A stretch of 36,909 nucleotides of DNA. Source: Actinobacteria bacterium HGW-Actinobacteria-5 (GTDB taxonomy: Bacteria > Actinomycetota > Actinomycetes > Propionibacteriales > Propionibacteriaceae). Of this stretch, positions 864 to 24,890 are shown in pieces. The notes under the pieces were generated by a model. It searched no databases and was not told where the DNA came from. It saw only the letters and a list, made by a program, of their open reading frames with translations. Within the stretch, counting starts at the first letter, position 1. Every line of letters begins with the position of its first letter. Position numbers and translations under genes: made by a program. The stretch lies in the NCBI GenBank assembly GCA_002843035.1, contig PHEV01000019.1, forward strand, positions 1 to 36,909, read 5' to 3'.

Positions 864-1304
864 ATGGACTGGGTTGGCTACACCGAGTGGGTGGCGCTGG
901 CGTTGGTCCTCCTGCTCCTGGCGCCCGTGGTGTTCCTCGGCGTCCGGCGGCGTTGGCTCTCCCGGCAGGGTGGACTGTTCGACTGCTCGGTGCGCCTGTC
1001 CGGCAAGTCGCCCGGCTCGGGGTGGGCACTCGGAGTGGCCCGCTACTCCGGCGACAACCTGGAGTGGTTCCGGGTGTTCTCGATCGCGCTGCGTCCCCGG
1101 CTGATCTTCCCGCGCTCGCAGGCGCGTGCGGGCGCGCAGCGGGACCCCGACCCGATCGAGTCGGTGTTGCTCTATGACGAGCAGCGCATCCTCACCCTCG
1201 AGCTCGCGGACGGTCGGTCCTGGGAGCTGGCCATGTCGACGGCGTCCCTCACCGGCCTGCTCAGCTGGCTGGAGTCCGCACCGCCCGGCGCGCGTTACCG
1301 CTGA
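864..1304 (+). CDS. DUF2550 family membrane-anchored protein
   Basis: This 146-residue protein belongs to the DUF2550 family, which in actinobacteria usually lies directly after atpC, as here. A single hydrophobic helix, about residues 8-27 ('VALALVLLLLAPVVFLGVRR'), anchors the N-terminus. The rest, about residues 35-140, is a small soluble domain with 'FDCSVRL', 'GWALGVARYSGDNLEWFRVFS' and 'LELADGRSWELAMS'. No catalytic motif is visible and the function is unknown. The start is an ATG 18 bases after the atpC stop, so it may be cotranscribed with the atp operon. Its stop codon is followed after one base by the first REP hairpin, which marks the left border of the RAYT element. Confidence 0.85.
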   Translation: MDWVGYTEWVALALVLLLLAPVVFLGVRRRWLSRQGGLFDCSVRLSGKSPGSGWALGVARYSGDNLEWFRVFSIALRPRLIFPRSQARAGAQRDPDPIESVLLYDEQRILTLELADGRSWELAMSTASLTGLLSWLESAPPGARYR

Positions 1305-1305
1305 T

Positions 1306-1338
1306 AGACCAGGTTGGGGACGGTTCCGAACTCGGTCC
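1306..1338 (-). repeat. REP-like imperfect palindrome, left copy 1
   Basis: This 33-nt element starts at 1306, two bases after the DUF2550 stop codon. Its ends can pair (GGTCC with AGACC, one G-T), and the interior pairs with a few mismatches around a 3-nt loop. It matches the next copy at 32 of 33 positions and repeats with a 38-nt period. It contains the core GGGGACGGTTCC shared by all copies in the window. Strand is given relative to the orientation of the copies right of the transposase gene. Confidence 0.85.
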
Positions 1339-1343
1339 AGGTT

Positions 1344-1376
1344 GGACCAGGTTGGGGACGGTTCCGAACTCGGTCC
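1344..1376 (-). repeat. REP-like imperfect palindrome, left copy 2
   Basis: This is the second tandem copy of the 33-nt element. It has perfect GGACC/GGTCC ends and the core GGGGACGGTTCC. Folded on itself it gives a roughly 15-bp stem with three mismatches and one G-T pair. Read inward toward the transposase gene it matches the right-hand copies (read inward from the other side) at 27-28 of 33 positions. Confidence 0.88.
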
Positions 1377-1406
1377 ACCTCCCCTTCGGGCCCGGCGATC
1401 GCGAAG

Positions 1407-1415
1407 TTATCCACA
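1407..1415 (+). promoter_or_regulatory. Isolated DnaA-box-like nonamer
   Basis: TTATCCACA is a perfect match to the classical DnaA-box nonamer, 77 bases upstream of the transposase start and inside the element bounded by the REP hairpins. One isolated 9-mer can occur by chance. No cluster of boxes or AT-rich unwinding region is nearby, so this is not an origin. Confidence 0.3.
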
Positions 1416-1491
1416 GATTGCGTATGGACCTCTCCCGCCGGCGGATCGCGCTGCATAGGCTCACCGCTCAACACGATGAGCGAGGGGCGAC

Positions 1492-2262
1492 ATGCCGCGG
1501 CGGGCACGACGGACGGCTGGTTCGGGGATCTATCACGTGATGTTGCGTGGGGTGAATCGTGACCCGATCTTCCTCGACGATGCGGATCGGACCTACTTCC
1601 TCCGGACGCTGGGGACGGTCAGGGATGCCTCGGGGTGTCGGGTGCTGGCCTACTGCCTCATGGACAATCACGTACACCTCGTGCTGCGCACGGGCGCGGA
1701 GCCGCTCGGCGCGATCGTGAAGAGGCTGGGCGTGCGGTACGTGCGCTGGTTCAACCGTAGGTACGATCGCGTGGGCCACCTCTTCCAGGATCGCTTCAAG
1801 AGCGTTCCCGTGGAGACGGACCCGCACTTCGTATCGCTGCTTCGCTACGTGTGGAACAACCCCGTCAAGGCAGGGCTGGTCGTCCGTCCGGATGAGTACC
1901 GGTGGAGCAGTCGGCGGTGCTTCGGTGGTCCGTCCCATCTGATCGACGCGGACGAATTGGACGCTCTGCTGGCGTCCGACCCGCTTGCCGACGACGTGGG
2001 GGAGGAGCTGCCGCTGTGGGACGGCCCTCGCAGCCCTGGCTCGCGTCCCAGGTACTCCGACGAGCAGGCCGCGGCCCTTCTCGAACAGGCGTGCGGCGCG
2101 GTCAGTCCGGACGAGTTCCTCCGGCTGGCCGAGCGCACCCAGCGAATGGCGATCCGTGAACTCCGCGTCCGCTCGGTCAGCTTCAATCAGCTGGCCGCGA
2201 TCACCGGGATCAGCGCCACCACGCTCAAGCGCCGACATGCCACCCGGAGCGCGGCCAACTAG
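1492..2262 (+). CDS. REP-associated tyrosine transposase (RAYT, Y1/HUH family)
   Basis: This 256-residue protein is a single-tyrosine HUH nuclease related to IS200/IS605 TnpA. Such proteins cut and rejoin single-stranded hairpin DNA through a 5'-phosphotyrosine link. The family signature 'GIYHVMLRGVNRDPIF' lies at residues 12-27. The metal-binding HUH motif is His60-Val61-His62 in 'YCLMDNHVHLVL', followed by 'RRYDRVGHLFQDRFKS' (89-104). The probable catalytic tyrosine is Tyr119 in 'LRYVWNNPVKAGLV', inferred from family layout. The C-terminal part, about 200-250, ends in a helix-turn-helix-like segment 'FNQLAAITGISATTLKRR', resembling the DnaA-like tail of some larger RAYTs. The ATG is preceded by GAGGGG. 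No frame damage is seen. The gene is flanked by two REP hairpins on each side in opposite orientation, the expected arrangement for a RAYT and its substrate. Confidence 0.93.
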   Translation: MPRRARRTAGSGIYHVMLRGVNRDPIFLDDADRTYFLRTLGTVRDASGCRVLAYCLMDNHVHLVLRTGAEPLGAIVKRLGVRYVRWFNRRYDRVGHLFQDRFKSVPVETDPHFVSLLRYVWNNPVKAGLVVRPDEYRWSSRRCFGGPSHLIDADELDALLASDPLADDVGEELPLWDGPRSPGSRPRYSDEQAAALLEQACGAVSPDEFLRLAERTQRMAIRELRVRSVSFNQLAAITGISATTLKRRHATRSAAN

Positions 2263-2266
2263 GAGT

Positions 2267-2299
2267 GGACCGGGTTAGGAGCCGTCCCCGATTTGGTCC
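2267..2299 (+). repeat. REP-like imperfect palindrome, right copy 1
   Basis: This 33-nt element starts 4 bases after the RAYT stop codon. It has GGACC/GGTCC ends and an imperfect stem containing several G-T pairs. It carries the reverse complement of the shared core, with one change (GGAGCCGTCCCC). It is inverted relative to the two left copies and repeats with a 45-nt period. Confidence 0.87.
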
Positions 2300-2311
2300 G
2301 CCGATCCGGGT

Positions 2312-2344
2312 GGACCGGGTTAGGAACCGTCCCCGATTTGGTCC
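2312..2344 (+). repeat. REP-like imperfect palindrome, right copy 2 (inside the adenosyltransferase gene)
   Basis: This is the second right-hand copy, with perfect GGACC/GGTCC ends. It overlaps the 3' end of the minus-strand cob(I)alamin adenosyltransferase gene. Read on the minus strand it encodes that protein's last residues PDQIGDGS and supplies the TAA stop. The repeat has therefore replaced or extended the original gene end. Confidence 0.88.
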
Positions 2345-2991
2345 GGGCGGGTGATGCGGGAGCGCTGGCGCCGTGCGCGGGGTTCGGTGACCTCGCGGTC
2401 CTTGCCGGGCACCCACAGCACCTCTCCGGCCGCCTGGCCGGCGGCACGGGCGAGGATGAACAGCAGGTCCGAGAGCCGGTTCAGGTAGCCCAGCGCGAGC
2501 GGGTTCACCCCACCGGGGCCGCCGTCGGAGGCCGGCTCGGTGCCGTAGACGTCGACAGCGGCCCAGCCGGCCCGCTCGGCACGCCGGACAACGCTGCGCG
2601 CCAGGTGCAGCAGTGCCGCGGTCTGGCTGCCGCCCGGCAGGATGAACGAGCGCAGCGGGGGCAGCGGGTCGCCGAACTCGTCGCACCAGCCCTCCAGCCG
2701 GTCGATGTAGGGCTGGATCACTCGCAGCGGCTCGTACGGGGGGTCGGCAGCGAGCGGGTTGGACAGGTCGGCACCGCAGTCGAACAACTCGTTCTGGACG
2801 TGTCGCAGCACCTCGCGGACCGGCTCCGGCAGATCCGGCTGGACGACGACCACGCCGAGCAGGGAGTTCGCCTCGTCCACGTGGCCGTACGCTTCGACGC
2901 GCGGATCGGTCTTGGCCGTTTCCGACAGGTCGGAGAGACGGGTTCGGCCGGCGTCCCCGGTGCGGGTGTAGATGCGGGTGAGGTTGACCAT
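2320..2991 (-). CDS. Cob(I)alamin adenosyltransferase, PduO type
   Basis: This 223-residue enzyme is predicted to transfer adenosyl from ATP to cob(I)alamin, giving the coenzyme B12 needed by methylmalonyl-CoA mutase. The ATP-binding N-terminus 'RIYTRTGDAGRTRLSDL' is at residues 5-21, followed by 'RVEAYGHVDEANSLLG' and the helical 'RSVVRRAERAG' segment, all typical of PduO/ATR proteins. I chose the ATG at 2991 because the family motif starts there and a TAGGTT box lies 7 nt upstream. Frame upstream is open but lacks family sequence. The usual end ('VLWVPG') is followed by about 25 extra residues, the last eight encoded by a REP repeat. It is divergent from the cyclophilin gene, with 49 bases between starts. 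A B12 role fits the methylmalonyl-CoA epimerase gene at 7973-8422. Confidence 0.92.
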   Translation of the reverse strand: MVNLTRIYTRTGDAGRTRLSDLSETAKTDPRVEAYGHVDEANSLLGVVVVQPDLPEPVREVLRHVQNELFDCGADLSNPLAADPPYEPLRVIQPYIDRLEGWCDEFGDPLPPLRSFILPGGSQTAALLHLARSVVRRAERAGWAAVDVYGTEPASDGGPGGVNPLALGYLNRLSDLLFILARAAGQAAGEVLWVPGKDREVTEPRARRQRSRITRPDQIGDGS

Positions 2992-2998
2992 GAACCCC

Positions 2999-3004
2999 AA
3001 CCTA
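2999..3004 (-). promoter_or_regulatory. Putative -10 box of a leaderless transcript (adenosyltransferase)
   Basis: TAGGTT lies 7 nt upstream of the ATG at 2991. This is the spacing expected if transcription begins at or next to the start codon. No convincing -35 is seen. Six other genes in the window show the same arrangement. Confidence 0.5.
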
Positions 3005-3040
3005 CCGGGCGAGCTTGGCGCACTGTGGCAGGGTTGGGGC

Positions 3041-3700
3041 GTGAAGAGACCCACCCTGCTGCTGACTCTCCTGCTCCTCGGGGGGAGCGTTTCCGCCTGC
3101 ACGTCCAGCACCCCGGCCGCACCGGCAGCGCAGGGCGGTACGACCTGCGCCTACCAGGCCGCAGGCACTGCAGCGAAGAAGGTCTCCCTGCCGCCCACCT
3201 CGGGCGTGCCGAACACGGGAACGGTGACCTACCACCTCCAGCTGAACCAGGCCAAGCTCGCCGTGGCCCTCGACCAGGCGCACGCCCCCTGCACGGTGAA
3301 CTCCTTCCTCTCGCTGGCGCGACAGGGCTATTTCGACAACACCTCCTGCCACCGCCTCGTGGACGGCAACGGGCTGTATGTGCTGCAGTGCGGCGATCCG
3401 ACGGGCACCGGCACCGGCGGCCCGGGCTACCAGTTCGCGGACGAACTCTCCGGCAACGAGACCTACACCGCCGGCACGCTGGCGATGGCGAATGCCGGGC
3501 CCGGCACGAACGGGTCACAGTTCTTCATCGTCTACGCCGACAGCCAGTTGACCGCGAACTACACCGTGTTCGGCCATGTCGATGCCGAGGGCATCAACGC
3601 GGTGGCCGGCATCGCGGAGGGAGGCCAGGACGGCAGCTGGGGCGACGGCAGCGGCAGGCCGCTGACTCCGGTCGTGATCAAGGCCGTGACGGCGGGCTGA
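3041..3700 (+). CDS. Cyclophilin-type peptidyl-prolyl isomerase, predicted lipoprotein
   Basis: This 219-residue protein is predicted to catalyse proline cis-trans isomerisation outside the cytoplasmic membrane. The GTG at 3041 gives a clean lipoprotein signal: Lys-Arg, a leucine-rich core (residues 5-13), then the lipobox Val-Ser-Ala-Cys with Cys20 as lipidation site. A Ser/Pro/Ala-rich linker follows. The cyclophilin domain, about residues 60-218, shows 'FLSLARQGYFDNTSCHRLV', 'QFADEL', 'GTLAMANAGPGTNGSQFFI' and 'YTVFGHVDAEG'. The 'GTNGSQFFI' segment is the core active-site motif. An upstream in-frame start would put residues before the signal peptide and is less likely. The 3' end overlaps the convergent hydrolase gene by 23 bases. 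Confidence 0.9.
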   Translation: MKRPTLLLTLLLLGGSVSACTSSTPAAPAAQGGTTCAYQAAGTAAKKVSLPPTSGVPNTGTVTYHLQLNQAKLAVALDQAHAPCTVNSFLSLARQGYFDNTSCHRLVDGNGLYVLQCGDPTGTGTGGPGYQFADELSGNETYTAGTLAMANAGPGTNGSQFFIVYADSQLTANYTVFGHVDAEGINAVAGIAEGGQDGSWGDGSGRPLTPVVIKAVTAG

Positions 3701-24847: not shown

Positions 24848-24853
24848 ACCGCT

Positions 24854-24886
24854 GGACCGAGTTCGGAACCGTCCCCAATCCGGTTC
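24854..24886 (+). repeat. Solitary fifth copy of the REP-like element
   Basis: This 33-nt copy matches the left-flank copies (reverse complemented) at 30 of 33 positions, about 22 kb from the RAYT gene. The stem extends outward by GCT/AGC. It lies in the gap between the cysteine desulfurase stop and mnmA, and ends just before a TAGGAT box. There is no T-tract. It shows that the repeat family is dispersed. Confidence 0.85.
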
Positions 24887-24890
24887 AGCG

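Follow-up and report, generated by a model that had tools for sequence, protein, structure and literature searches.

The window analysed here, i.e., a stretch of 36,909 nucleotides from Actinobacteria bacterium HGW-Actinobacteria-5 (contig PHEV01000019.1), carries a RAYT gene between inverted repeats that probably represents a RAYT-type TIRtron/TIRYT system, resembling TnpA-REP subclass 2.1, which spreads its cognate tagged repeats. This is the best explanation for what can be read from the DNA, namely the gene, the tag, the inward flanking, the dispersal, the dimer geometry, the association of gene and repeats, and the empty and filled insertion sites; activity of the transposase we infer. 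REP sequences are widespread bacterial repeats and the manner of their spreading is poorly understood. The spread of REPs was studied with GTAG repeats, as described in parts of two papers (PMC3733652; PMC6006769), and the window RAYT points to a little-studied branch of RAYT/REP systems. Here, a gene of the subclass 2.1 type goes together with hundreds of ordered copies, although the subclass is reported, in the relevant part of the source, to be without REP-like repeats (PMC6006769). Furthermore, one genome holds three gene-repeat pairs, amplification of the same core extends to genomes of other phyla, and natural swaps of tags and arms offer direct tests of recognition, cutting and target choice.

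The transposase gene and its flanking repeats

The locus comprises the following features, given in window coordinates together with one dispersed copy of the repeat:

864..1304, plus strand: DUF2550 gene (ORF; Pfam PF10739, 8.7e-40), with its stop directly before the first repeat
1306..1339 (1304-1339 at its widest), plus strand: left repeat 1, core 1316-1327, oriented toward the RAYT gene
1344..1377 (1342-1377 at its widest), plus strand: left repeat 2, core 1354-1365, oriented toward the RAYT gene
1492..2262, plus strand: RAYT gene (ORF; Y1/HUH transposase of 256 aa; Pfam Y1_Tnp; helical C-terminal domain)
2266..2299 (2265-2300 at its widest), minus strand: right repeat 1, core 2278-2289 with one mismatch, oriented toward the RAYT gene
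2311..2344 (2310-2345 at its widest), minus strand: right repeat 2, core 2323-2334, oriented toward the RAYT gene
2320..3111, minus strand: cobalamin adenosyltransferase of the PduO type (ORF; Pfam PF01923, 1.4e-54)
24853..24887, minus strand: dispersed single copy of the window repeat family, core 24865-24876, between two ORFs

The original prediction of a Y1/HUH transposase gene of the RAYT family with two tandem repeats on each side is borne out, with the gene at 1492-2262 and all four copies located. The predicted periods of 38 nt on the left and 45 nt on the right, with the two pairs facing inward, were recovered as well, as the starts of the four repeats are spaced by 38, 923, and 45 nt and the cores read plus, plus, minus, minus. 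The left and the right pair are mutually inverted, with repeats of 33-36 nt that are 85-86% complementary, and the core GGGGACGGTTCC faces the RAYT gene in all four flanking repeats, one copy having one mismatch. The placement between the ATP synthase operon and a B12 gene holds for the downstream side, where the adenosyltransferase is found, but directly upstream lies the DUF2550 gene and atpC is located one gene further. The stops at 1304 and 24847 are each followed immediately by a repeat, and the outer right repeat supplies the adenosyltransferase stop (TAA, minus strand, 2320-2322) and the last seven residues of this ORF; at 2320-2345 the repeat thus forms part of a reading frame. No Rfam family matched in 1200-2450 at E up to 1.

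The window protein matches Pfam Y1_Tnp at 2.5e-12, above the cut-off, and its nearest NCBIfam model is REP_Tyr_transpos with 70.9 bits, which is under the model cut-off of 80. It has the HUH motif, the catalytic tyrosine and the Y---NP signature, here as YVWNNP, and the residues H60, H62, and Y119 are invariant across 20 aligned homologues. A search of PDB sequences yielded weak matches alone, the best at 0.0051 to an unrelated-looking chain and 4er8 at 0.98; the usable structural result is the fold search. Starting from an AlphaFold model with a mean pLDDT of 82.1, its top PDB match, at E 1.1e-6 and with a TM-score of 0.71 by target length, was 4er8, a RAYT in complex with a REP hairpin, followed by the transposases of ISDra2 and IS608. 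The model contains C-terminal helices at 190-250, and helix-turn-helix families match weakly in the C-terminal part (e.g., HTH_23 in 11 of 20 members, best E 0.0015). No phage protein family was matched in a PHROGs search. Judged by the HUH motif, the signature, the fold and the dispersed flanking repeats, the protein is a putative RAYT/TnpA-REP transposase (class 2 Y1).

Repeat populations, tag and arms

The repeats are not confined to this locus. A genome-wide search of the 3.84 Mb assembly (295 contigs) found 337 copies of the core GGGGACGGTTCY, whose last position is C or T, and 242 copies of the exact 12-mer GGGGACGGTTCC, with a single hit for the reversed-pattern control in each case. 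The genome encodes three Y1_Tnp genes, each flanked by inward units that have the core in common (last base C or T) and differ in the arms; the other two proteins are 55-56% identical to the window protein, and near-identical transposase copies with ends were not found in this genome. Arms were read in 154 of the 337 copies and compared with family A, as in the window, family B, as at the C225 gene, and family C, as at the C256 gene. In total, 142 of the 154 copies belong to these families (52 A-like, 45 B-like, 45 C-like; 12 none), and a second pattern set returned the same 52, 45, and 45. Family A has 96 copies genome-wide at up to three mismatches (control 0), and 95 copies (control 0) were counted for GGGGACGGTTCT, the form that the core takes at the C225 gene.

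The copies are largely arranged as ordered dimers. Among the 44 neighbour pairs of family A, i.e., copies within 150 bp, 18 are plus-minus, 10 minus-plus, 9 plus-plus, and 7 minus-minus; the spacing is 44-48 nt in 16 of the 18 plus-minus pairs and exactly 32 nt, with abutting left arms, in eight of the 10 minus-plus pairs. The GGGGACGGTTCT set has 42 neighbour pairs (22 plus-minus, 8 minus-plus, 8 plus-plus, 4 minus-minus). This pair order is a REP-dimer or REPIN-like geometry.

Inward units are also the rule at the RAYT loci of relatives, where they were counted by hand on both sides in 20 of 22 loci; the exceptions are L042, with a unit on one side only, and L049 without a unit. When one unit per locus was compared (18 units), GGGGAC and two further core positions were invariant and the arms variable; the invariance of GGGGAC is partly built in because the units were picked by near-core matches. 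Less conditioned support for the tag comes from the inward/outward contrast described below, which still relies on the pattern GGG[GA][AT]C[AG]. The distance between right arms follows the distance between proteins (Mantel r 0.26, p 0.005, 18 loci), and that between cores gave r 0.01 over the same 18 loci. In several genomes, tag and right arm recur in head-to-tail arrays (period 21-31 nt), and the right-arm end in these arrays, often TCAC, runs directly into the next GGGGAC.

The original prediction described the repeats as 33-nt imperfect palindromes that form four flanking hairpins. The four repeats are real, but the palindrome is weak: when eight single strands of the window copies were folded as DNA, their stability did not exceed that of shuffles (z -0.83 to +1.12), and hairpin stability was dropped as evidence. 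A stem is likewise not present in all repeat families, as a stem score of 5 or more was reached by 36 of the 52 A copies, 36 of the 45 B copies, and 5 of the 45 C copies. The two arms of a unit score higher in pairing than they do after swapping between loci (mean 3.87 vs 2.57, sd 0.12; 95 units from 21 of 22 loci), and the own genome shows the same when arms are exchanged among its copies (4.89 vs 3.64, sd 0.10; 154 copies). A score of 6 or more was reached by only 20 of the 95 units. Compensatory changes were absent within family A (358 of 495 pairs; permuted mean 354.0) and within family B (258 of 300 pairs; permuted 258.9). Since C copies have few stems, few units score high and covariation is absent, the conserved piece is better regarded as a tag plus right arm, to which some families add a left arm. 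A separate RAYT clade (L043, L050, L053) has as flanking core the perfect palindrome GGGGACAGTCCCC within long paired arms, and this core also flanks genes in L135, L141, L291, and L295.

Relatives, insertion sites and other phyla

A homologue of the window protein was detected in 15 of 116 genomes searched and each of these 15 has at least 24 cores. Within the genus, the 14 RAYT-positive genomes, the own included, have 24-337 cores (median 139.5), and the 16 RAYT-negative genomes have 0-79 (median 3), seven of them without any core (Mann-Whitney p 1.2e-5, uncorrected for kinship). The repeats are accordingly not equally common where the RAYT is lacking, although some negative genomes keep 18-79 cores. 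These are G004 (43), G009 (79), G011 (18), and G025 (32) in the genus; G045 from another genus has 72 cores and no detected RAYT. A Pfam Y1_Tnp search of these five genomes detected no gene. Because draft assemblies break at repeats, RAYT genes may be missing from drafts. G009, G025, and G045 are rated 98-100% complete, yet have 79, 32, and 72 cores and no detected Y1_Tnp gene; they possibly represent RAYT losses with surviving repeats, or assembly gaps. Units of family A were counted in 30 genomes: 91 are present in G000 and 147 in G024, the carrier of the sister gene; G012 (87), G005 (51), and G017 (26) contain them as well, and a RAYT with A-type flanks was not found there; G002, G009, and G027 have 1-5 and the other 22 genomes none.

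The interval in which the window RAYT resides was compared among relatives by reading 30 adenosyltransferase loci. In 18 of these, DUF2550 is convergent and adjacent; L077 was left out, as its genes are in another arrangement, and the remaining loci have no DUF2550 in the stretch covered. As the original prediction had suggested, empty sites exist: 15 of the 18 loci have no RAYT in the gap between DUF2550 and PduO, and in several of them (e.g., L059, L060, L071) the 3′ ends of both genes abut or overlap. No core-like match, allowing two mismatches, occurs in the gap of the 15 empty loci; elsewhere in these loci such matches were found twice in L061 and once in L065. The three filled sites are those of the window genome, of G024, with a sister gene of 74% identity in the same orientation as the window RAYT, and of G017 (L058), with a RAYT of another branch in opposite orientation and with the core GGGGACGGGTCC. 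The empty sites in relatives support that the unit of RAYT and repeats is an insertion, and the gap has received at least two independent RAYT insertions.

These sites could also have been filled by a conventional insertion sequence of the IS200/IS605 type, in which gene and ends move as one and the dispersed repeats are leftover ends. The HUH fold close to the IS608 and ISDra2 transposases fits this, as do the 15 genomes, out of 18 with these neighbours, that lack the unit and the insertion of two unlike RAYTs in one gap. However, the other two RAYTs of the genome share only 55-56% identity with the window protein, so recent copies are absent; repeats outnumber genes by 337 to 3 and lie in ordered dimers; and the sister gene of G024, at the same place with 74% identity, suggests long vertical inheritance. 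We consider a conventional insertion sequence unlikely.

Relatives beyond the genus were collected by an alignment scan of named genomes; of 553 loci, the best 80 were kept, and these come from many phyla. Ten of these 80 are identical to loci of relatives, including MAGs named Propionibacteriaceae and Propionicimonas. Flanks were compared in the 69 loci (11 of the window group and 58 others) for which 150 nt or more were available on each side, by counting the oriented motif GGG[GA][AT]C[AG], which replaces a control-free generic inverted-repeat scan of the 80 loci. In the window group the motif faces inward on both sides in 10 of 11 loci and outward on both sides in two. Among the 58 other loci it is inward on both sides in 19 and outward on both sides in two, and on at least one side it is inward in 37 vs outward in 18; RAYT relatives in other phyla thus carry inward GGGGAC/GGGGTC tags. 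In a sample of 396 genomes of the phylum, 92 match alignment A1 (E up to 0.001), where all matches listed except the own genome are labelled as outside the class; some of the 92 may be other Y1 subclasses. In 11 phylum loci that were read, GGGGAC tags are inward on both sides in seven and outward on both sides in none. The system is therefore not the lone actinobacterial unit as which it had been portrayed, given these matches in the phylum and the loci in other phyla.

Amplification of tagged cores (18-326 copies) was found in eight of 17 genomes checked from among those other loci, of which 15 were picked for tagged flanks and those of L126 and L127 for inverted-repeat flanks. A Micrococcales MAG has 253 copies of the window core, two Clostridiales MAGs have 326 and 63, a Pelotomaculum MAG has 72 and Desulfoscipio 18, compared with 0-10 in the remaining 12 genomes (reversed controls 0-4). 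For GGGGTCAGGTCT, two betaproteobacterial MAGs gave 37 and 45 copies and a deltaproteobacterial MAG gave 20, compared with 0-2 in each of the remaining 14 genomes (controls 0-3). The core amplified in Desulfoscipio and in the deltaproteobacterial MAG differs from the RAYT-flanking core seen (GGGGACAGGCTA). The densest case found is the genome of L127 (G118, a rumen Clostridiales MAG of about 1.9 Mb) with its 326 core copies.

Slightly less probable than a conventional insertion sequence is that the repeats are host elements, e.g., structured sequences behind genes, which are spread or kept independently of a RAYT that landed among them: the positions behind the stops at 1304 and 24847, the stop supplied at 2320, and the five genomes with 18-79 cores and no detected RAYT agree with this, but the gap of the 15 empty loci holds no core-like match at two mismatches, seven of the 16 RAYT-negative congeners have no core at all, the arms differ between the RAYTs of one genome, and flanks in other phyla face inward on both sides in 19 of 58 loci vs outward in 2 of 58.

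Proposed mechanism and known systems

For the preferred reading, a RAYT-type system that spreads its cognate tagged repeats, the following mechanism is proposed. The 256-aa HUH transposase most likely binds its cognate repeat in single-stranded form. It would read the GGGGAC tag together with a lineage-specific right arm, and in families A and B this right arm can form a stem with the left arm. Y119 would cut beside the repeat unit, and strand transfer would pass units to new sites, resulting in dimers and tandem arrays. One cutting point is suggested by the tandem arrays, as the right-arm end, often TCAC, and the next GGGGAC form a recurrent junction. Counted against this reading are the folding at shuffle level, the mostly stemless C copies, the lack of covariation in A or B, the RAYT-negative genomes with 18-79 cores, the A units without an A-flanked RAYT, and the loci L049 and L042. 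A wider proposal, for which we see about even chances, is that GGGGAC/GGGGTC repeats form a third, phylum-spanning REP superfamily beside GTAG and CGTC, served by subclass 2.1 (group 1) RAYTs. The nearly invariant tag would be recognised and the clade-specific arms would act as a changeable key, which would allow several RAYT lineages to maintain separate repeat populations in one genome.

The original prediction named the unit a REPtron. Like canonical RAYT/GTAG-REP systems (REPtron, REPIN), it combines repeats that flank the gene and dimers dispersed in the genome with an HUH fold whose nearest match is 4er8. Inspection by eye of the window units and the listed RAYT-flanking and genome units revealed no GTAG/GTGG tetranucleotide at the hairpin foot, and without a GTAG foot the system is therefore not a canonical REPtron. 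Unlike there, the middle of the unit is where the tag is conserved, and the left arm is mostly absent in one repeat family of the window genome. With IS200/IS605 elements the window protein shares the Y1 HUH catalytic fold; in contrast to these, the gene is not multiplied, it has an extra C-terminal domain, and the repeats far outnumber it.

Closest are the TIRtrons, described in part of the work of Di Nocera, De Gregorio and Rocco 2013 as a RAYT-like gene (TIRYT) between inverted repeats unrelated to GTAG REPs (PMC3733652). There, the motif GGGGWSAS is common to some TIRs, the repeats occur as dimers or clusters in some genomes, and TIR families are termed moderately abundant (PMC3733652). 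The window RAYT likewise lies between inverted repeats that are unrelated to GTAG and form dimers; its tag GGGGACGG is off by one position from GGGGWSAS, and four of 18 units carry the fitting GGGGACAG. Different from the TIRtrons in that account are the 337 cores, the actinobacterial host, and the presence in one genome of three gene-repeat pairs that share the core but not the arms (PMC3733652). Within the sections of Quentin et al. 2018 that treat these classes, most TIRtrons are equated with TnpA-REP subclass 2.1, the second largest subclass, to which 291 of 292 Bertels group-1 RAYT sequences are assigned; no REP-like sequences were found near subclass 2.1 genes and Actinobacteridae are given subclass 1.1 only (PMC6006769). 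The window protein resembles subclass 2.1 as characterised there by its length, its C-terminal helix-turn-helix-like extension and the Y---NP signature, whereas its REP-like repeats and its actinobacterial host depart from the reported subclass (PMC6006769). In the open-access library searched, no paper listed ties the core to RAYTs in its title or the opening of its abstract; figures, such as the TIR sequences in Figure 9 of PMC3733652, and supplements were outside the scope of that search. By protein layout and repeats, TIRtron or subclass-2.1-like RAYT seems the better-fitting label for the window system, and the present case extends this thinly described kind by the number of repeat copies, the order of the dimers, three gene-repeat pairs in parallel, the range of hosts and the history of insertion.
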